The notes below the pieces were generated by a model. That model did not search any database. It was not told where the DNA came from and saw nothing but the letters and a program-made list of their open reading frames with translations. Position numbers and translations under genes: made by a program. This document shows, piece by piece, positions 2,726 to 9,565 of a stretch of 64,000 nt of DNA. The first letter of the stretch is position 1, and the number at the start of each line of letters is the position of its first letter. This DNA comes from Alitabrizicola rongguiensis (GTDB lineage Bacteria; Pseudomonadota; Alphaproteobacteria; Rhodobacterales; Rhodobacteraceae): the NCBI RefSeq assembly GCF_021491355.1, contig NZ_JAKENF010000002.1, positions 682,001 to 746,000 on the forward strand. The letters are read 5' to 3'.

Positions 2726-3451
2726 TCAGATGCTGATCTGCGCGAAACCCTCGCGCAACGCCTTCGACCACGCCTCGCTCATCGCCTTGAACTGCGCGTC
2801 CCCGGCCTCGATCCGCCGCCGCGTTCCGACGCGGCACTGGTCCTTCTCGATCGTCATCAGGTCCAGCGGCATGCCGACCGACAGGTTCGACCGCAGCGTT
2901 GAATCCATCGACAGAAGCACCGCCTTCTGGGCATCGGTAAGGCTCGTCGAAGGTTTGACCACCCGGTCCAGGATCGGCTTGCCATACTTGTGTTCGCCAA
3001 TCTGCAGGAAGGGGGTATCCTCGGTCGCCTCGATGAAATTGCCCTCGGGATAGATCAGGAACATCCGCATGTCCCCGCCCCGGCGCTGCCCCGCGACGAT
3101 CATCGAGGCCGAGGCGCCCTGGTTCATCGCCGCCAACTTCTCGTCGATGTCGCGACGTACGGCAGCGAGCGTGTTGCCGACGATCTCTGCGACCTTAAGC
3201 ATTGTCGGCGCCTTCATGATCGAAGTCGTCTCGGTCGCGTCTACGTCCTCGATCGCCTCCTTGAGACGCGCGATCGTGGTCTGGGTCACAGACAGGCTGC
3301 CAGCTGTCAGGATGGTGATGACCCGTTCGCCCGGAACCTCGAAAACGAACATCTTGCGATAGGTCGCGATATTGTCGAGCCCGGCATTGGTGCGTGTGTC
3401 AGACAAAAGCACCATGCCCTGATTGAGCAGCAGTCCGACGCAGTAGGTCAT
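2726..3451 (-). CDS. Anbu proteasome-type peptidase
   Basis: A 241-residue member of the Anbu (ancestral beta subunit) family of self-compartmentalising proteasome-like enzymes. After removal of Met the chain begins TYCVGLLL. This gives an N-terminal Thr nucleophile with Asp17 (SDTRTN) and Lys32 (TYRKM) at the spacing expected for an Ntn-hydrolase active site. It is the last gene of a four-gene minus-strand operon (ATP-grasp, alpha-E, transglutaminase, Anbu), the association reported for this family. Anbu assembles into an open ring or helical oligomer. Its natural substrate and the purpose of the operon remain unknown. Confidence 0.93.
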   Translation of the reverse strand: MTYCVGLLLNQGMVLLSDTRTNAGLDNIATYRKMFVFEVPGERVITILTAGSLSVTQTTIARLKEAIEDVDATETTSIMKAPTMLKVAEIVGNTLAAVRRDIDEKLAAMNQGASASMIVAGQRRGGDMRMFLIYPEGNFIEATEDTPFLQIGEHKYGKPILDRVVKPSTSLTDAQKAVLLSMDSTLRSNLSVGMPLDLMTIEKDQCRVGTRRRIEAGDAQFKAMSEAWSKALREGFAQISI

Positions 3452-3493
3452 CCATCCCTCTTTCCGCCGCTCTTGCGGCGACAGGGCGAGAGC

Positions 3494-4303
3494 CTATTGC
3501 TGGACAGCCTGGACTGCAACCGTCACATCCAGGATTTCGGCCGCCGAACCGCGCGAAATTCCACGAATCGGCGCTGCATCCTGTGCATCGAGCCCCGACC
3601 CCAACCGGATATAGCGTTCATCCGGGCAGCAGCCATTGGCCGGATCGAACCCGATCCAGCCCAACCCCTCGATCCAGACCTCGGCCCAGGCGTGAGCGGC
3701 CTCGTGCGGCTCGCCGTCCCCGCTGGCGTGCAGGTAGCCCGAGACATAGCGAGCTGGCAGATCGTTGCGCCTTGCTATGGCGATCAGCGCATGGGCGTGG
3801 TCCTGGCAAACGCCTTCCCCCAGGGCCAAAGCCTCGGCCGCGGTCGTATGCGCAGCGGTGACGCCCGGCTCGTAGTTTATCGCTTCGCTGACGGCAGCAC
3901 AAAGCCGGTGTGCCGCGTCGAGCCGATCCGTTGCGCCTTCGGCAGCCGCGGCGAGTTCGGCAAGAGCCGCGTCGACTTCGGTCGGAGCCGTGGCGTTCAG
4001 ATAGGCCTCGCGGGGGATCGTCTCCTTATGGCCGCGCAGGAGGCCGGTCAGGTCTATCGTCTCGACCTTGCCGCGGACCGAGACGATCACCTCGCTGACT
4101 GGCCCGGTCACGGTCCAGGCCTGCACCCAGTCCCCGGCCCCATCGCGAAAGCCGCCGCCCTTCTGGCCGTCACTGACCTCAACCGACCAGTCCAGCACCT
4201 TCTGTCCGTCAAAGATCGACGGCGTCAGGCGATGGCTTTGCACGATCCCGCGCACCGGCAGCGTGTAGCGATAGACTGTCCTGTGATCGACGCTGAGGAT
4301 CAT
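3494..4303 (-). CDS. Transglutaminase-like cysteine peptidase of the Anbu operon
   Basis: A 269-residue protein with the bacterial transglutaminase N-terminal beta domain (residues 1-80) and a papain-like transglutaminase core. The probable triad is Cys166 (GEGVCQDHA), His204 (EAAHAWAEVW) and Asp220 (GFDPANG). Such enzymes in bacteria are mostly amidases or proteases rather than cross-linkers. Its ATG overlaps the stop of the alpha-E gene by 4 bases, so translation is probably coupled. It ends 42 bases before Anbu. No signal peptide is seen, so it should act in the cytoplasm with Anbu. Confidence 0.92.
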   Translation of the reverse strand: MILSVDHRTVYRYTLPVRGIVQSHRLTPSIFDGQKVLDWSVEVSDGQKGGGFRDGAGDWVQAWTVTGPVSEVIVSVRGKVETIDLTGLLRGHKETIPREAYLNATAPTEVDAALAELAAAAEGATDRLDAAHRLCAAVSEAINYEPGVTAAHTTAAEALALGEGVCQDHAHALIAIARRNDLPARYVSGYLHASGDGEPHEAAHAWAEVWIEGLGWIGFDPANGCCPDERYIRLGSGLDAQDAAPIRGISRGSAAEILDVTVAVQAVQQ

Positions 4304-5253
4304 CTCACGTCCCCGCTCAGATAGGCTTCATGCACCAGGTGACCAAGCCGACCGGTTTCGAGGATGAAGCGGGTCAGGAATTCGTGCATTCCTTCGTCGA
4401 ACACCGCCTCGACCGTGCCATCCTGCAGCTCGGCCAGCATGTTCCGCGCCATGCTCTGCGCCTCAGTCGATCTGCCGTATCCGCGCGCGAGCCGGTGCAG
4501 ATGCTCGTTCGTCCCGTAAGCACAGGAGATCAGCGAGCGCGGGCATTGCGGGTTCAGGATCAGGAAATGCGCGATCTTGCGCGCCGTCACCTCGCCGCCA
4601 TAGGCCCAGTGGAAGGCGCGGTGCGCCGACATCGCGCGCAGCAGCGTCGTCCATTGGTAGTTGTCGAGGCCCGAGCCAACGAACTCCACCCGCGGCAGCA
4701 GAACATAATATTTAACGTCCATCAGGCGCGCGGTGTTGTCAGCCCGTTCCAGATGATAGCCGAGGTTCAGGAAATCCCAACCGTCGTTACGCAAAAGCGT
4801 AGCGTCGATCGCGCCCCGCACCATCGCCGAATGGCGCATCGTCCATTCGGTCAGGCGGCTCAGTTCCAGCTCGCTGCGCGGTTTGCGTTCAAGCTCGCGC
4901 AGTTCCTGGTAGGCGGTATTGATCGCGTCCCACACCTGTGTCGTCAGCGCCGTGCGCACGATGCGCGCATTCTCCCGTGCCCGAAACAGGCAGGAGGCGA
5001 CGGACGAAACATTGTCGCGGTCGAAGAACATGTAGCTTTCGATGTTGCGCTGCACCGGGTCGCCATACTTGTGGGCAAAGCCCAAGGCAGTCCCCGAAGC
5101 CTGCAACAGGCTGTCCCACTCGCTGCGGTAGCCATGCCCTGACGAGGGCAGTAGCGCGATGCGCGCGCCCACTTCCAGCAGGCGCGCCGTGGTCTCGGCC
5201 CGCTCCATGTAACGGGCAATCCAGTAAAGATTGTCTGCGGTCCGGCTCAGCAT
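4300..5253 (-). CDS. Alpha-E domain protein of the Anbu operon
   Basis: A 317-residue all-helical alpha-E domain protein. The family signature is the opening MLSRTADNLYWIARYMERAE, followed by evenly spaced charged helices (for example YHLERADNTARLMDVKYYVLL near residue 190). The family has no established catalytic activity. It is found almost always beside a circularly permuted ATP-grasp enzyme and a transglutaminase, and has been proposed to take part in peptide synthesis or modification. It starts 4 bases after the ATP-grasp stop and overlaps the transglutaminase by 4 bases. Confidence 0.92.
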   Translation of the reverse strand: MLSRTADNLYWIARYMERAETTARLLEVGARIALLPSSGHGYRSEWDSLLQASGTALGFAHKYGDPVQRNIESYMFFDRDNVSSVASCLFRARENARIVRTALTTQVWDAINTAYQELRELERKPRSELELSRLTEWTMRHSAMVRGAIDATLLRNDGWDFLNLGYHLERADNTARLMDVKYYVLLPRVEFVGSGLDNYQWTTLLRAMSAHRAFHWAYGGEVTARKIAHFLILNPQCPRSLISCAYGTNEHLHRLARGYGRSTEAQSMARNMLAELQDGTVEAVFDEGMHEFLTRFILETGRLGHLVHEAYLSGDVR

Positions 5254-5257
5254 ATCG

Positions 5258-6688
5258 TCACTCCGCCAGCACCCAGGTATCCTTGACGCCCCCGCCCTGG
5301 GACGAGTTGACGACCAGCGATCCCTCCTTGAGCGCCACTCGGGTCAGCCCGCCGGGGACCAGCTCGATACGCTCGCCGACAAGGCAATAGGGGCGCAGGT
5401 CCACGTGACGCGGCGCGATGCCCTGCTCGACAAAGGTTGGCACGGTCGACAGGGCCAGCGTCGGCTGGGCGATGTAGTTTCCGGGGTCGGCCTTGATCCG
5501 GTCGGCAAAGCCCGCGATCTGCTCGGCGGTCGATTTCGGCCCGACGAGCATCCCGTATCCGCCCGAGCCGTGGACCTCCTTCACGACAAGCTCGCCCAGA
5601 TTCTCCAGCACATACTTGCAGTCATCGGCCTTGGCGCACTGCCATGTGGGCACGTTCTGCAGGATCGGTTCCTCGCCCAGATAGAAGCGGATCATCTCGG
5701 GCACGAAGGTGTACACGGCCTTGTCGTCGGCGACACCGGCCCCCGGCGCCGAGCAGATCGAGACGCCGCCCGATCGGTAGACATCCATCAGTCCCGGCAC
5801 ACCCAGCATCGAATCCGGGCGGAAGCACAGCGGGTCGATATAGGCGTCGTCGATCCGGCGATAGATCACGTCCACCTTGCGCGGGCCTTCGGTCGTGCGC
5901 ATCCAGACGAATTCGCCCTCGACGAACAGATCCTGCCCCTCGACCAGTTCGACACCCATCAAGTCGGCAAGGAAGCTGTGTTCGTAATAGGCACTGTTGA
6001 AATGGCCCGGTGTCAGGATGACGATTGTCGGCTCGCTGTTGCATTTCGGCGGCGCCACGCTGGCCAGCGTCCGGCGCAGGAGGTCGGGGTAGCGGTCCAC
6101 CGGTTCGATGCGGTTCTCGCGGAACAGTTCAGGGAACATCCGCATCATGATCTCGCGGTTTTCCAGCATGTAGCTGACGCCCGAAGGCGTGCGGCAGTTG
6201 TCCTCGAGCACGAAGAACTCGTCCGGGCCGGTCCGCACGAGGTCGATCCCGACAATATGAGAGTAGACGCCCTTGGGCGGCACGATCCCCGCCACGGCCT
6301 TTTCATAGGCGTCGTTCTGATAGACGAGCCGCGCCGGAATGCGCCCCGCGCGCACGATCTCGCCCCGGCCATAGACATCAAGAAGGAAGGCGTTCAGCGC
6401 CCGCGCCCGCTGCTTGATTCCGCGTTCCAGCCGGGTCCATTCAGCATTGGTGAAGACGCGCGGAAACATGTCGAAGGGGATCAGCCGGTCCGGGTCGCCC
6501 CCCTCGCCATAGACGGCGAAGGTAATCCCGATCCGGCGGAACAGCGATTCCGCCTCGGCCTGTTTCATCTGGCGCAATTCAGCGGGCATCGAACGGGTCC
6601 AGTCCTCGAGCCGCGCATACGGCAGTCGGACGGTGTCGCTCTGGTACATCTCGTTGAAGTAGGTGGTCAAAGCAGAGGCTTCCCCCAT
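5258..6688 (-). CDS. Circularly permuted type 2 ATP-grasp protein
   Basis: First gene of the Anbu operon, encoding 476 residues from the ATG at 6688. An in-frame TTG at 6787 would add 33 residues. The inner ATG is preferred because family proteins begin close to the conserved YFNEMY segment and an AGGGA lies just before it. The sequence has the permuted ATP-grasp features: a nucleotide-binding region with GIDLVRTGPDEFFVLEDNCRTPSG in the middle and KEVHGSGGYGMLVGP towards the end. ATP-grasp enzymes form carboxylate-amine bonds through an acyl phosphate. Here the presumed product is a peptide or peptide-like tag, which is inference from the operon. Confidence 0.9.
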   Translation of the reverse strand: MGEASALTTYFNEMYQSDTVRLPYARLEDWTRSMPAELRQMKQAEAESLFRRIGITFAVYGEGGDPDRLIPFDMFPRVFTNAEWTRLERGIKQRARALNAFLLDVYGRGEIVRAGRIPARLVYQNDAYEKAVAGIVPPKGVYSHIVGIDLVRTGPDEFFVLEDNCRTPSGVSYMLENREIMMRMFPELFRENRIEPVDRYPDLLRRTLASVAPPKCNSEPTIVILTPGHFNSAYYEHSFLADLMGVELVEGQDLFVEGEFVWMRTTEGPRKVDVIYRRIDDAYIDPLCFRPDSMLGVPGLMDVYRSGGVSICSAPGAGVADDKAVYTFVPEMIRFYLGEEPILQNVPTWQCAKADDCKYVLENLGELVVKEVHGSGGYGMLVGPKSTAEQIAGFADRIKADPGNYIAQPTLALSTVPTFVEQGIAPRHVDLRPYCLVGERIELVPGGLTRVALKEGSLVVNSSQGGGVKDTWVLAE

Positions 6689-6831
6689 CGGTCCCTGAAG
6701 CCAGTTAATCAGCCCGACATGCGCCGCGAAAGGCCCCAAACCACCAATCAAGGGTGCGACATGTGCATTCGCCACTTTTTTGGGCAATCGCAGCCGCTGG
6801 CCGTGTTCGCGCCAGACGCTATCCTTGGCTC

Positions 6832-7866
6832 ATGGCCCAGCAACCGCTCCTGACCTTCACCGACCGCGGCATCTGCTGCCCCGAGGGCGGATTCTACATC
6901 GACCCCTGGCGGCCGGTCGGTCGTGCGCTCATCACCCACGGCCATTCCGACCACGCCCGGCCCGGCCACGGCGCCTATCTTGCCACCGATGCCGCCGCCC
7001 CGGTCATTCGCCACCGGCTTGGTCCGATCCGGCTCGAGACGATCGGCTTCGGCGAGACCCGGCAGATCGGCGGCGTCACCGTCTCGTTCCATCCGGCGGG
7101 CCATGTGCCCGGCTCGGCGCAGATCCGGATCGAGCGCGGGGGCGAGGTCTGGGTGGTTTCAGGCGATTACAAAACTGAGCCTGACGGTCTGTCCGAACCC
7201 TTCGAGCCGGTCCTCTGCCATACCTTCATCAGCGAATGCACCTTCGGCCTGCCGGTCTTCCGATGGGCTCCGCAGCCAGAGGTGATGGCAAGAATCAATC
7301 GCTGGTGGGCGGCGAATGCCGCCGAAGGACGCATGTCTATCCTGGGCGCCTATGCGCTTGGGAAGGCACAGCGGCTGATGGCGGGGCTCGATCCCGGCAT
7401 CGGTCCTCTCCTGACCCATGGCGCGGTCGAGGAAACCACGGCGATCCTGCGCGCGCAGGGCTATCCCTTGCCCGCCACAACCCGCGTCACGGCAGGCATC
7501 GACGCGAAATCCCATCCCGGCGCCCTGGTCATTGCCCCGCCGGGAGCCGAAGCGACACCCTGGGCCAACCGCTTCGGTGGTTATGCCAGCGCCTTTGTAT
7601 CGGGCTGGATGCAGATACGCGGGATCCGCCGCCGTCGCGGCGCCTCGACCGGCTTCGTCCTGTCGGACCACGCCGATTGGCCAGGCTTGAATACTGCCAT
7701 CCGCGAAACCGGCGCGACGCGGGTCTATGTCACCCATGGCTATACGCAGATCTTTCGTCGCTGGCTGGCGGATCAGGGCTACGACGCCGGCATCGTCGCG
7801 ACCGAGTATGAAGGCGAAGGCATCGAAGCGCCCGCCGATCCCCTGGTGGAGGCGGCAGCAGAATGA
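6832..7866 (+). CDS. Ligase-associated DNA exonuclease (metallo-beta-lactamase fold)
   Basis: A 344-residue metallo-beta-lactamase/beta-CASP nuclease of the ligase-associated exonuclease family. The metal-binding HGHSDHARPGH (about residues 37-47) and SGDYKTEPDG (about 114-123) are visible. A late FVLSDHADWPG (about 279-289) corresponds to the beta-CASP histidine region. It should act on DNA ends that the ligase then seals. The start at 6832 is chosen because the family begins with a short FTDRGICC-like segment. A TATCCT box only 6 bases before the ATG hints at a leaderless or near-leaderless transcript. The ATP-dependent ligase follows after 76 bases. Confidence 0.9.
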   Translation: MAQQPLLTFTDRGICCPEGGFYIDPWRPVGRALITHGHSDHARPGHGAYLATDAAAPVIRHRLGPIRLETIGFGETRQIGGVTVSFHPAGHVPGSAQIRIERGGEVWVVSGDYKTEPDGLSEPFEPVLCHTFISECTFGLPVFRWAPQPEVMARINRWWAANAAEGRMSILGAYALGKAQRLMAGLDPGIGPLLTHGAVEETTAILRAQGYPLPATTRVTAGIDAKSHPGALVIAPPGAEATPWANRFGGYASAFVSGWMQIRGIRRRRGASTGFVLSDHADWPGLNTAIRETGATRVYVTHGYTQIFRRWLADQGYDAGIVATEYEGEGIEAPADPLVEAAAE

Positions 7867-7928
7867 ACTCCGTTTTCATTCTTTCGTTCGGAAGCATCCT
7901 CGCGGGGCGCGGGGGGCAGGAAGCCCCC
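7860..7928 (+). other. Two hairpins between exonuclease and ligase genes
   Basis: An 8-base perfect stem (AGAATGAA/TTCATTCT, 7860-7867 with 7875-7882) straddles the exonuclease stop codon. It is followed by a GGGGGC/GCCCCC stem (7912-7917 with 7923-7928). Neither has a clean T tract. They may protect or partly terminate the upstream message. The function is inferred only. Confidence 0.4.
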
Positions 7929-7942
7929 TGTCGCGACCAGCC

Positions 7943-9565
7943 ATGAAGCGCTTCGCCCGGCTCTTCGCGGCGCTCGACGCCACCACGCGCACCTCGGAAA
8001 AGACCGCGGCACTGGCTGCCTATTTCCGCGAGGCCCCGGAAGAGGATCGGCTCTGGACTATCGCGCTGCTCTCAGGCCGCCGCCCGAAGCGGGCCGTGAC
8101 AGCGACAGAGCTGGCGCAATGGGCGGCCGATGCTGCGGGCCTGCCCTACTGGCTGTTCGAGGAAACCTATCCGGTGGTTGGCGATCTGGCCGAGACCATC
8201 GCGCTGATCCTGCCGCCGCCCGTCCAGACGGAGACACGCAGCCTTTCCGACCACCTGACGACCCTGCTGCGTCTGACCGGGCATCCTGCCGACGAGCGAC
8301 GCGCGGCCATCGTGAGCGCATGGGCAGGGATGGAGCAGGACGAGCGGTTCCTCTTCAACAAGCTCATCACCGGCGGATTTCGCATGGGGGTCAGCCAGGG
8401 CTTGATGACCCGCGCTCTCGCCCAGGCGACCGGCCTGCCCGAAACAGAACTGGCGCATCGCCTGATGGGCGACTGGACCCCTGCACGGACCAGCTATGCG
8501 GCACTGATCCTATCGAATGAGGGAACGGGGTCAGGGGCACAGCCCTATCCCTTTGCCCTCGCCTCGCCGCTCGAGGCGGACGCGCCCACACTCGGACCGC
8601 CTGCCGACTGGTTTGCCGAATGGAAATGGGACGGCATCCGTGGCCAGCTGGTCCGCCGGCGCGGGGCCTTCGCGCTTTGGTCGCGCGGCGAGGATCTCAT
8701 CACCGACCGCTTTCCCGAATTCGCCCCGCTTGCCGACTTCCTGCCAGAAGGAACCGTGATCGACGGCGAGGTGCTGGCCTGGGGCGCGGGCAACCCCCTG
8801 CCCTTCGCCGCGCTTCAGACCCGGATCGGCCGCAAGAACGTGCCCAGGAAGGTCCTGGCAGAGGCTCCGGCCCGCCTGCTCGCCTATGACCTTCTGGAGG
8901 CCGATGGCAATGACCTGCGCGCAGCCCCCTTTGCACAACGCCGATCGCGACTCGAGGCGATCGTGGCCGCGTTGCCCCCTGACATACCCCTAGGTCTGTC
9001 TCCGGAAGTGCCCTTCACCGACTGGAGCGCTCTGGCGGAGACACGGCTCGGCGCGCGCGAGGCGGTGGCCGAAGGCCTGATGCTCAAGCGCCGGACGTCG
9101 CCCTATTTCACCGGGCGCAAGCGCGGCGACTGGTGGAAGTGGAAGCTCGATCCCTTCACCGTCGATGCCGTCATGCTCTATGCGCAGGCCGGGCACGGCC
9201 GCCGAGCCTCGCTTTTCACCGACTTCACTTTTGCGGTCCGTGACGGCGATCACCTTGTCCCCTTCGCAAAGGCTTATTCAGGCCTGACCGACGACGAGTT
9301 CGCCGAGATCACCCGTTGGGTTCGGCAGAATACTCTCGAACGATTTGGCCCGGTGCGGCGGGTCACGCCGGAACTGGTGTTCGAGCTGGCGTTCGAAGGC
9401 ATCCAGGCGTCCTCTCGCCACAAGTCGGGGATCGCCCTTCGCTTCCCGCGAATGCTGCGCTGGCGGAGGGACAAGCCGGTCGCCGAGATCGACACCCTTG
9501 ACGGGCTCAAGGCGCTGCTCGCCTCGGTGAGCGACCGCGGTCAACCTTCGAACACGGGCGCGTGA
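7943..9565 (+). CDS. ATP-dependent DNA ligase
   Basis: A 540-residue ATP-dependent DNA ligase (ligase-associated set, LigB/LigC-type). An N-terminal helical DNA-binding domain spans roughly 1-200. The adenylation motif EWKWDGIRGQ places the nucleotidyl Lys near residue 231. Motifs RGEDLI, DGEVL, EGLMLK and WWKWK follow in order and the OB-fold is C-terminal. The ATG at 7943 begins MKRFARLFAALD, the usual N-terminus. In many bacteria this enzyme is encoded with an exonuclease, a DEXH helicase (Lhr type) and a phosphoesterase; only the exonuclease is adjacent here. It is an accessory repair ligase beside the NAD-dependent replicative one. Confidence 0.92.
   Translation: MKRFARLFAALDATTRTSEKTAALAAYFREAPEEDRLWTIALLSGRRPKRAVTATELAQWAADAAGLPYWLFEETYPVVGDLAETIALILPPPVQTETRSLSDHLTTLLRLTGHPADERRAAIVSAWAGMEQDERFLFNKLITGGFRMGVSQGLMTRALAQATGLPETELAHRLMGDWTPARTSYAALILSNEGTGSGAQPYPFALASPLEADAPTLGPPADWFAEWKWDGIRGQLVRRRGAFALWSRGEDLITDRFPEFAPLADFLPEGTVIDGEVLAWGAGNPLPFAALQTRIGRKNVPRKVLAEAPARLLAYDLLEADGNDLRAAPFAQRRSRLEAIVAALPPDIPLGLSPEVPFTDWSALAETRLGAREAVAEGLMLKRRTSPYFTGRKRGDWWKWKLDPFTVDAVMLYAQAGHGRRASLFTDFTFAVRDGDHLVPFAKAYSGLTDDEFAEITRWVRQNTLERFGPVRRVTPELVFELAFEGIQASSRHKSGIALRFPRMLRWRRDKPVAEIDTLDGLKALLASVSDRGQPSNTGA

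Follow-up and report, generated by a model that had tools for sequence, protein, structure and literature searches.

The 64,000-nucleotide stretch of the Alitabrizicola rongguiensis genome analysed here (hereafter the window) carries, on its minus strand between positions 2726 and 6688, an operon that codes for the proteasome-like subunit Anbu. According to the open reading frame (ORF) calls, the coding order runs from 6688 to 2726 through the genes of an ATP-grasp protein, an alpha-E protein, a transglutaminase-like (TGase) protein and, last, Anbu (Table 1). An initial annotation, made from the sequence alone, had called this a complete four-gene operon, and all four ORFs are indeed present on the minus strand. 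The tight spacing that it described, with overlaps or gaps of 4 bases, applies to two of the three junctions: the coordinates give a 4-nucleotide gap between ATP-grasp and alpha-E and a 4-nucleotide overlap between alpha-E and TGase, but a gap of 42 nucleotides between TGase and Anbu. Published work already describes the operon and the order of its genes and names Thr1, Asp17 and Lys32(33) as candidate residues (PMC5666114; PMC6376114). The window operon is an intact member of this published, still unexplained operon type. Its biochemical purpose, which the initial annotation had regarded as unexplained, is so regarded in the literature as well: peptide synthesis, tagging and protein turnover in nitrogen starvation have been proposed, none of them experimentally confirmed to the knowledge of the authors of PMC6376114. 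A predicted nitrogen box upstream of the operon, a one-sided dependence of Anbu on the ligase genes and natural losses in the TGase are added here as useful leads; they do not amount to a new kind of system.

Table 1. Anbu operon of the window, its predicted upstream box and the second ligase locus of the same genome.
Feature	Position	Strand	Evidence or remarks
ATP-grasp protein, circularly permuted type 2, 476 residues, first gene of the operon	5258-6688	minus	PF14403, PF04174, 3n6x
Alpha-E protein, 317 residues, E-R motif in both of its related halves	4300-5253	minus	PF04168
Transglutaminase-like (TGase) protein, 269 residues, Cys166-His204-Asp220 intact	3494-4303	minus	PF01841, PF08379, 3isr
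Anbu proteasome-like subunit, 241 residues, Thr1-Asp17-Lys32 intact	2726-3451	minus	PDB matches, conservation
Predicted NtrC-type box TGCCCAAAAAAGTGGCG	6770-6786	minus	81 bp before the start of the ATP-grasp gene, on the side of the divergent exonuclease gene
Second ligase locus (L033)	contig 9 of the same genome, 106000-124000		Large TGase of 1103 residues, ATP-grasp/alpha-E fusion of 802 residues, small TGase of 295 residues

Profile searches with hidden Markov models, the check proposed in the initial annotation, returned all four expected families. The ATP-grasp protein matches PF14403 (CP_ATPgrasp_2) over the full profile (positions 1 to 374 of 374; 551 bits) as well as PF04174 (493 bits), and aligns with the solved structure 3n6x, named “Putative glutathionylspermidine synthase,” at an E-value of 5e-197. 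Its reading frame is open up to 6787; residue 4 of 3n6x pairs with query residue 5, and the starts annotated in relatives lie within a few codons of the ATG at 6688. The alpha-E protein scores 306 bits against PF04168 (cut-off 20.8), and its E17-R18 (ER) motif is invariant in 132 sequences. Comparison of its halves, residues 1–144 and 145–317, gives an hhalign probability of 98.7 (E-value 2.3e-16, 127 columns), so similar that the protein most likely arose by internal tandem duplication; a solved homologue of it was sought in the PDB, with chance-level matches only. The TGase matches Transglut_core (PF01841, 86 bits), Bact_transglu_N (PF08379, 58 bits) and the structure 3isr (E-value 5e-10), and the alignment columns of its predicted triad Cys166, His204 and Asp220 are kept in the window copy.

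Anbu itself obtains only 25.8 bits from the Pfam Proteasome model, a low score that reflects the model, and E-values of 5e-78 to 1e-57 with five distinct Anbu-type PDB sequences (5loy, 5nyj, 5nyf, 5nyw, and 5lox). Two of these, 5nyw and 5lox, carry only the name “Peptidase” in the PDB listing; 5lox is called Anbu elsewhere (PMC8665760). The C-terminal region can be aligned to a solved chain up to query residue 239. The catalytic site reported as intact in the initial annotation is so: Thr directly follows Met1, and Thr1, Asp17 and Lys32 correspond to ORF residues T2, D18 and K33. In a comparison of 174 distinct sequences, Asp17 and Lys32 are invariant, and the Thr1 column holds T in 173 and S in a single one (L119). 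Viral contigs yielded eight pattern matches and no relative of Anbu. A divergent Anbu-like protein, 35% identical and perhaps of the published Anbu-2 subtype, is encoded far from ligase genes at 6335–6934 of another locus (L131, genome G095).

The aligned upstream regions of close orthologues contain a palindrome, TGCCnAAAAnTTnGGCA, mostly 58–105 bp before the ATP-grasp start and of the general form GCC-N9-GGC. Leave-one-out scoring with a matrix hand-seeded from this alignment places 28 of 44 non-redundant close upstream regions above the 99th percentile of random windows. Among 87 distant upstream regions, none of them used for training, 58 lie above the 95th and 29 above the 99th percentile of 3480 control windows, as compared with 0.9 expected at the latter threshold, an excess to be discounted somewhat, as orthologous upstream regions are not independent and p-values overstate it. 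On the symmetric core matrix the box in the window reaches 12.2 bits, more than the 95th control percentile (9.1) but less than the 99th (14.2), and its support therefore comes from position and conservation, not from strength.

The same palindrome recurs elsewhere in the genome. Allowing at most one mismatch, the pattern gives 37 hits (34 places, three of them on both strands) against four for the reversed pattern. The surroundings of all 34 were inspected, and five of the ten best-scoring places precede glnB, preT, nifR3-ntrBC, ureD and the second ligase locus. At glnB, a PII protein of 112 residues begins 112 bp from the palindrome. The distance is 105 bp at nifR3-ntrB-ntrC, where DusB/NifR3 scores above its NCBIfam cut-off and NR(II) and NR(I) are the best matches yet fall below theirs. 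It is 122 bp before ureD in the urease operon, in which ureA and ureC are above cut-off and ureD, which has no NCBIfam match, was named by eye; 68 bp at the pyrimidine-breakdown genes preT-preA, where PreA is above cut-off and PreT was named by eye and position; and 122 bp before the large TGase of the second ligase locus. Because one palindrome is common to glnB, nifR3-ntrBC, ureD and preT in a single genome, a box for the nitrogen-starvation regulator NtrC is the simplest reading and, on this sequence evidence, most likely the right one; control of the window copy by NtrC is probable, though this copy is weak. The NtrC consensus of R. capsulatus, CGCC-N9-GGC, where NtrC acts with sigma-70, has a similar form, although a literature search did not confirm it. 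Strong palindromes also lie near a pyruvate carboxylase gene (L258), an MdoG-like gene (L266) and uvrC/SDR (L260), which are possible extra members of a nitrogen regulon.

Sites resembling sigma-54 promoters appear in some other lineages. They precede 13 of 88 distant orthologues, compared with 47 of 4400 control windows and none of 47 close orthologues; before the window operon, the best score with weights for the known sigma-54 consensus is 7.1 bits, which is background level. In four loci (L047, L133, L191, and L218) the palindrome and a sigma-54-like site are both present, the palindrome lying upstream. A set of ten operons on plasmids, drawn from 60 listed hits, was kept out of training, and the palindrome reaches at least 12 bits in six of them, against 3.7% of 600 control windows; the carriers are two near-identical Paracoccus, S. 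meliloti, Shinella, Caballeronia, and R. leguminosarum. With a looser pattern, sigma-54-like sites are seen in five of the ten (Shinella, Caballeronia, R. leguminosarum, Aeromonas, and Halomonas), against 158 of 2000 control windows, and by these criteria the operons of Burkholderia stagnalis and Limimaricola have neither. Anbu was not found in the fetched stretches of S. meliloti, Shinella, R. leguminosarum, B. stagnalis, and Halomonas. As an observation apart, the fetched stretches of S. meliloti pSymB (L301), Shinella (L303), and R. leguminosarum (L305) each hold an Anbu-less three-gene unit with an upstream palindrome of at least 14 bits, which suggests a family that may have lost Anbu and kept its regulation.

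Published expression data agree in the main with a link to nitrogen. For P. putida, PP_2685–2688 appear in a list of genes under NtrB/NtrC control, with strong induction of three of them in nitrogen limitation (PMC7801951), and the Anbu gene PP2685 was up 11.1- and 4.0-fold in another nitrogen-limitation study (PMC3325844); from the gene order, PP_2687 and PP_2688 would be alpha-E and ATP-grasp. The DUF404/407-DUF403-TGase cluster of B. cenocepacia is NtrC-dependent (PMC5491218), the COG of Anbu falls within a predicted sigma-54 regulon (PMC12316311), and marine metagenome networks tie these domains to urea metabolism (PMC3597751). The open-access literature searched contained no report of NtrC control of Anbu operons outside Pseudomonas, nor of the related cluster outside Burkholderia.

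Co-occurrence of the genes in related genomes, on which the initial annotation had made its claim depend, is pronounced. In a family sample of 80 genomes, of which 57 encode Anbu, 61 alpha-E and 60 the TGase N-domain, alpha-E is present in 57 of 57 Anbu genomes (Fisher p = 8e-15 for Anbu and alpha-E) and TGase in 56, the exception (G021) being a genome whose operon is broken by contig ends. On the same strand and within 4 kb of Anbu, alpha-E is found in 55 and the TGase N-domain in 51 of the 57, and since Anbu genes are nearly always accompanied by linked alpha-E and TGase, the operon is not a chance arrangement. Apart from this sample, the 80 relatives that were named are the best 80 of at least 597 confirmed, a choice biased towards close relatives. 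Departures from the standard layout comprise four family genomes in which Anbu lies beside alpha-E and a divergent large TGase replaces the small one, a genome (G066) with Anbu on a separate contig from the other three genes, and one (G048) with these three genes and no Anbu match. A hydrolase similar to the alpha/beta hydrolase of the window adjoins the relocated Anbu of G066 (L041).

In a phylum sample of 239 genomes, Anbu is found in 83, alpha-E in 129 and the circularly permuted (CP) ATP-grasp in 133 (130 above cut-off). Alpha-E is present in 82 of the 83 Anbu genomes, and 47 alpha-E genomes have no Anbu. Pooling gives 139 of 140 Anbu-positive entries, which are entries and not distinct genomes, as the two samples overlap at the Anbu-positive G000, G023, and G055. 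Among the standalone alpha-E places listed, 50 of the 83 phylum Anbu genes have alpha-E adjacent on the same strand and 20 within 10 kb; five of the remaining pairs are more than 10 kb apart on one contig, six are on other contigs and two have no listed place. Eleven of the 83 thus have alpha-E in the genome, yet none listed within 10 kb of Anbu, and in seven of these (L125–L131) the 14-kb neighbourhood contains Anbu alone of the four genes. Given that alpha-E is present even where it is unlinked and that many alpha-E genomes are Anbu-less, the association is persistent and one-sided: Anbu is nested in the ligase module, its association outlives linkage, and the module often occurs without Anbu. 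This nesting supports a functional link of Anbu to ligation. HslV, used as a control, is encoded by 216 of the 239 phylum genomes, and Anbu is present in 4 of the 20 listed genomes that lack it; the idea that Anbu replaces HslV was rejected, since the window's genome encodes HslV as well.

No further constant member of the operon emerged. Clustering of genes of at least 80 codons over 83 loci (the best 40 clusters; some loci come from the same genome) revealed no fifth gene specific to the operon in distant loci; it recovered the operon families, generic ABC-transporter ATPases (13 loci, three of them distant) and a few groups of two to five loci. A SUV3-like helicase, an oligopeptidase, the ligase/exonuclease pair and a ferredoxin (names given by eye) are syntenic in the close clade only and not in distant loci. 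Likewise, ORFs of 30–79 codons outside large ORFs (955 ORFs, six clusters) include no family common to distant loci.

The second ligase locus of the same genome (Table 1) has no Anbu, of which the whole genome contains a single match. The fusion of ATP-grasp and alpha-E at this locus is the best evidence on their relationship and suggests that the two work together. In L035, L138, and L140, Anbu stands beside the second ligase system; L138 and L140 are superclusters in which Anbu lies amid both systems.

The TGase has followed another course than Anbu. Its nucleophile column is Cys in 146 of 152 sequences, taken as the best match per locus and thus including a few large TGases, and the six exceptions belong to two Methylobacterium, a Methylobacteriaceae metagenome-assembled genome, Chthonobacter, a Siculibacillus metagenome-assembled genome, and Falsiroseomonas. 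On a tree of ATP-grasp and Anbu from 123 loci, some nodes of which are weakly supported, these losses amount to four changes. Since the Cys was lost repeatedly and the Anbu residues are near-invariant, the chemistry of the TGase looks dispensable within the Anbu unit and that of Anbu does not. In all six Cys-less genomes, and in two others examined (L206 and L184), another TGase is encoded by an open frame at least 980 codons long, so that rescue in trans by a large TGase would be possible; its specificity is not implied.

From these observations, the standard Anbu operon is read here, with a probability of about 0.5, as a module for nitrogen starvation in which an amide-linked conjugate is first made and then cleaved. 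Of the steps in this reading, nitrogen control has the best support; the chemistry and the substrate we infer. When nitrogen is short, phosphorylated NtrC would bind the palindrome upstream of the operon and switch it on, a step for which the sequence evidence speaks and which is extrapolated to this organism from the published induction in P. putida. The ATP-grasp protein, together with alpha-E, would join a carboxylate and an amine into an amide-linked conjugate, which family membership makes likely; release of phosphate from ATP by the ATP-grasp protein has been reported (PMC6376114) and was shown in Y. bercovieri. Anbu, as a predicted Thr1 hydrolase, might then cleave the conjugate or a later form of it and free the amine or amino acids for reuse, and we put the chance that it cleaves the ligation product at roughly even. 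The natural losses suggest that the TGase-like subunit may be an auxiliary hydrolase or transferase with losable chemistry, perhaps supplied by the second locus. As to the conjugate, both a protein tag and a peptide-amine similar to glutathionylspermidine would be compatible. The coupling of peptide ligation to degradation, suggested in the initial annotation, is a hypothesis already in print (Iyer et al., 2009, cited in PMC5666114 and PMC6376114); its first half gains support from the nesting of Anbu, while nothing computed shows Anbu degrading proteins. A much bolder version would be a dedicated nitrogen-starvation pathway across Pseudomonadota, NtrC-controlled through two promoter types, in which ATP-grasp and alpha-E form a protein/peptide conjugate and Anbu is its specific hydrolase, a counterpart of pupylation built from unrelated enzymes, with a dispensable and sometimes catalytically dead TGase; we regard it as speculative and improbable in this full form.

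Several observations count against a nitrogen-controlled conjugate module. The window box is one of the weaker copies of the palindrome; the other five of the ten best places, named by eye, lie at pyc, near an MdoG-like gene, at a DUF3307-like gene, near uvrC/SDR and in an acyltransferase/AMP-ligase region; and 21 of the 34 places fall within an ORF by a crude caller, including the window and nifR3 sites that were judged intergenic. The best site in the amtB stretch, at 13.1 bits, lies about 650 bp before the amtB match. Only 10 of 21 upstream regions of second loci reach the 95th percentile and four the 99th, the 21 consisting of the genome's own copy, scanned over a longer stretch, and 20 relatives from 24 listed large-TGase frames of more than 1000 residues in other genomes, after exclusion of the hybrid or unusual G015, G017, G039, and G078. 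For the Anbu gene of P. putida, PP_2685, the first of the listed values is a mere 1.12; its three operon partners show high values throughout the three columns listed, even though an rpoN mutant is included (PMC7801951). The main text of a Caulobacter study that mapped NtrC by chromatin immunoprecipitation sequencing does not contain the words alpha-E or ATP-grasp (PMC10274813); Caulobacter does encode alpha-E, as a control search found. On the chemical side, the assays described in the excerpts of PMC6376114 detected no peptidase or amidase activity of Anbu, and one genome (G172, locus L141) has an orphan Anbu with intact catalytic residues and no match to alpha-E or CP-ATP-grasp.

It could be asked whether Anbu simply acts as a general protease that turns over bulk protein when nitrogen runs short, with the other three genes in a modulating role only. 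Anbu has the fold of a proteasome, binds proteasome inhibitors and holds its sites in a ring-like array (PMC5666114); these features, together with the induction of the operon by nitrogen limitation (PMC7801951; PMC3325844), would suit such a role, but standard peptide substrates went uncleaved (PMC6376114) and, according to the excerpts of PMC5666114, no AAA+ partner of Anbu is known. A general protease would, moreover, not need alpha-E and ATP-grasp, yet Anbu almost never occurs without them, and the great majority of the phylum genomes sampled have HslV, that of the window alongside Anbu; this explanation thus accounts less well for the nesting, and we consider it unlikely. Much the same standing is given to protein tagging, in which ATP-grasp and alpha-E would add a small tag and Anbu would degrade the tagged proteins or take the tag off again, much as in pupylation or deubiquitination. 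This is a published proposal (cited in PMC6376114), nitrogen-starvation control suits the recycling of proteins, and Anbu accompanies the ligase module even when unlinked. The clustering of distant loci, however, brought up neither a recurrent fifth gene nor a recurrent small ORF that could code for a tag, a result that covers linked tags; the PF03136 search found the genome to be without a Pup ligase, and the operon partners of Anbu gave no specific interaction in pull-downs, as far as the excerpts of PMC6376114 go.

The regulatory step has its own competitor, namely that some regulator different from NtrC binds the palindrome, or that the weak window copy is unused, which would make the nitrogen link of this copy accidental. 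Its identity as an NtrC box does rest on neighbouring genes and on the presumed Rhodobacter consensus, and half of the ten best genome sites are away from evident nitrogen genes. Sites at glnB, nifR3-ntrBC, ureD and preT in one genome nevertheless form the pattern expected for NtrC, as do palindromes upstream of sigma-54-like sites in some other lineages, and we hold this explanation to be the least probable of the three alternatives.

Anbu is a candidate ancestor of the proteasome, and in the papers cited here its substrate and activity have been sought without success. The nitrogen box, the nesting of Anbu and the repeated loss of the TGase nucleophile make a vague question testable: the box suggests at what times, and perhaps for what reason, the cell draws on the operon, and the past failure to detect Anbu activity could simply reflect the absence of the conjugate.

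The operon is flanked by genes of other kinds. Its divergent neighbours on the plus strand, at 6754–9565, score 459 bits for TIGR04122 (ligase-associated DNA exonuclease) and 653 bits for TIGR04120 (ATP-dependent DNA ligase), and the intergenic region of the palindrome also faces the exonuclease gene. Convergent with the Anbu gene, at 1405–2631 on the plus strand, are the genes of an SCP2 domain protein and of the alpha/beta hydrolase mentioned above.

Descriptions of such operons in Pseudomonas, Yersinia and other bacteria are attributed to Valas and Bourne (2008) and Iyer (2009), and further accounts are those of Fuchs (2017, PMC5666114) and Piasecka (PMC6376114). The window operon resembles those of Pseudomonas and Yersinia in its four genes, their order, the Thr1-Asp17-Lys32 site and a sequence near that of solved Anbu proteins (PMC5666114; PMC6376114), but it is a Rhodobacterales-type copy with an NtrC-type palindrome and no sigma-54 site above background. 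A closer counterpart is found on the large plasmid pFER4 of Paracoccus ferrooxidans (E3U26_19090-19075), whose products are 81% (ATP-grasp) and 75% (Anbu) identical to those of the window, in other surroundings; the P. ferrooxidans and Limimaricola operons are annotated as ATP-grasp, alpha-E, transglutaminase family protein and peptidase. Within the genome, the second ligase locus shares paralogous ligase, alpha-E and TGase domains and the same palindrome with the window operon, and differs from it in lacking Anbu, in its fused ligase and alpha-E and in a TGase of about 1100 residues. RimK/RimB and RloABC also pair an ATP-grasp protein with a protease, RloABC with a TGase-like protein in addition, but their proteases are aspartic peptidases, and the TGase domain of Rlo is inactive and membrane-bound (PMC12239564). 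Membership in a pupylation pathway was rejected: PF03136 (Pup ligase PafA/Dop) has no match in the genome, and the control search hits Corynebacterium. Glutathionylspermidine synthetase/amidase follows a logic in which a ligase is combined with an amide hydrolase. The window operon would share this logic, and the solved homologue of its ATP-grasp protein, 3n6x, is labelled a putative glutathionylspermidine synthase (a depositor's name); the two systems differ in their hydrolases.

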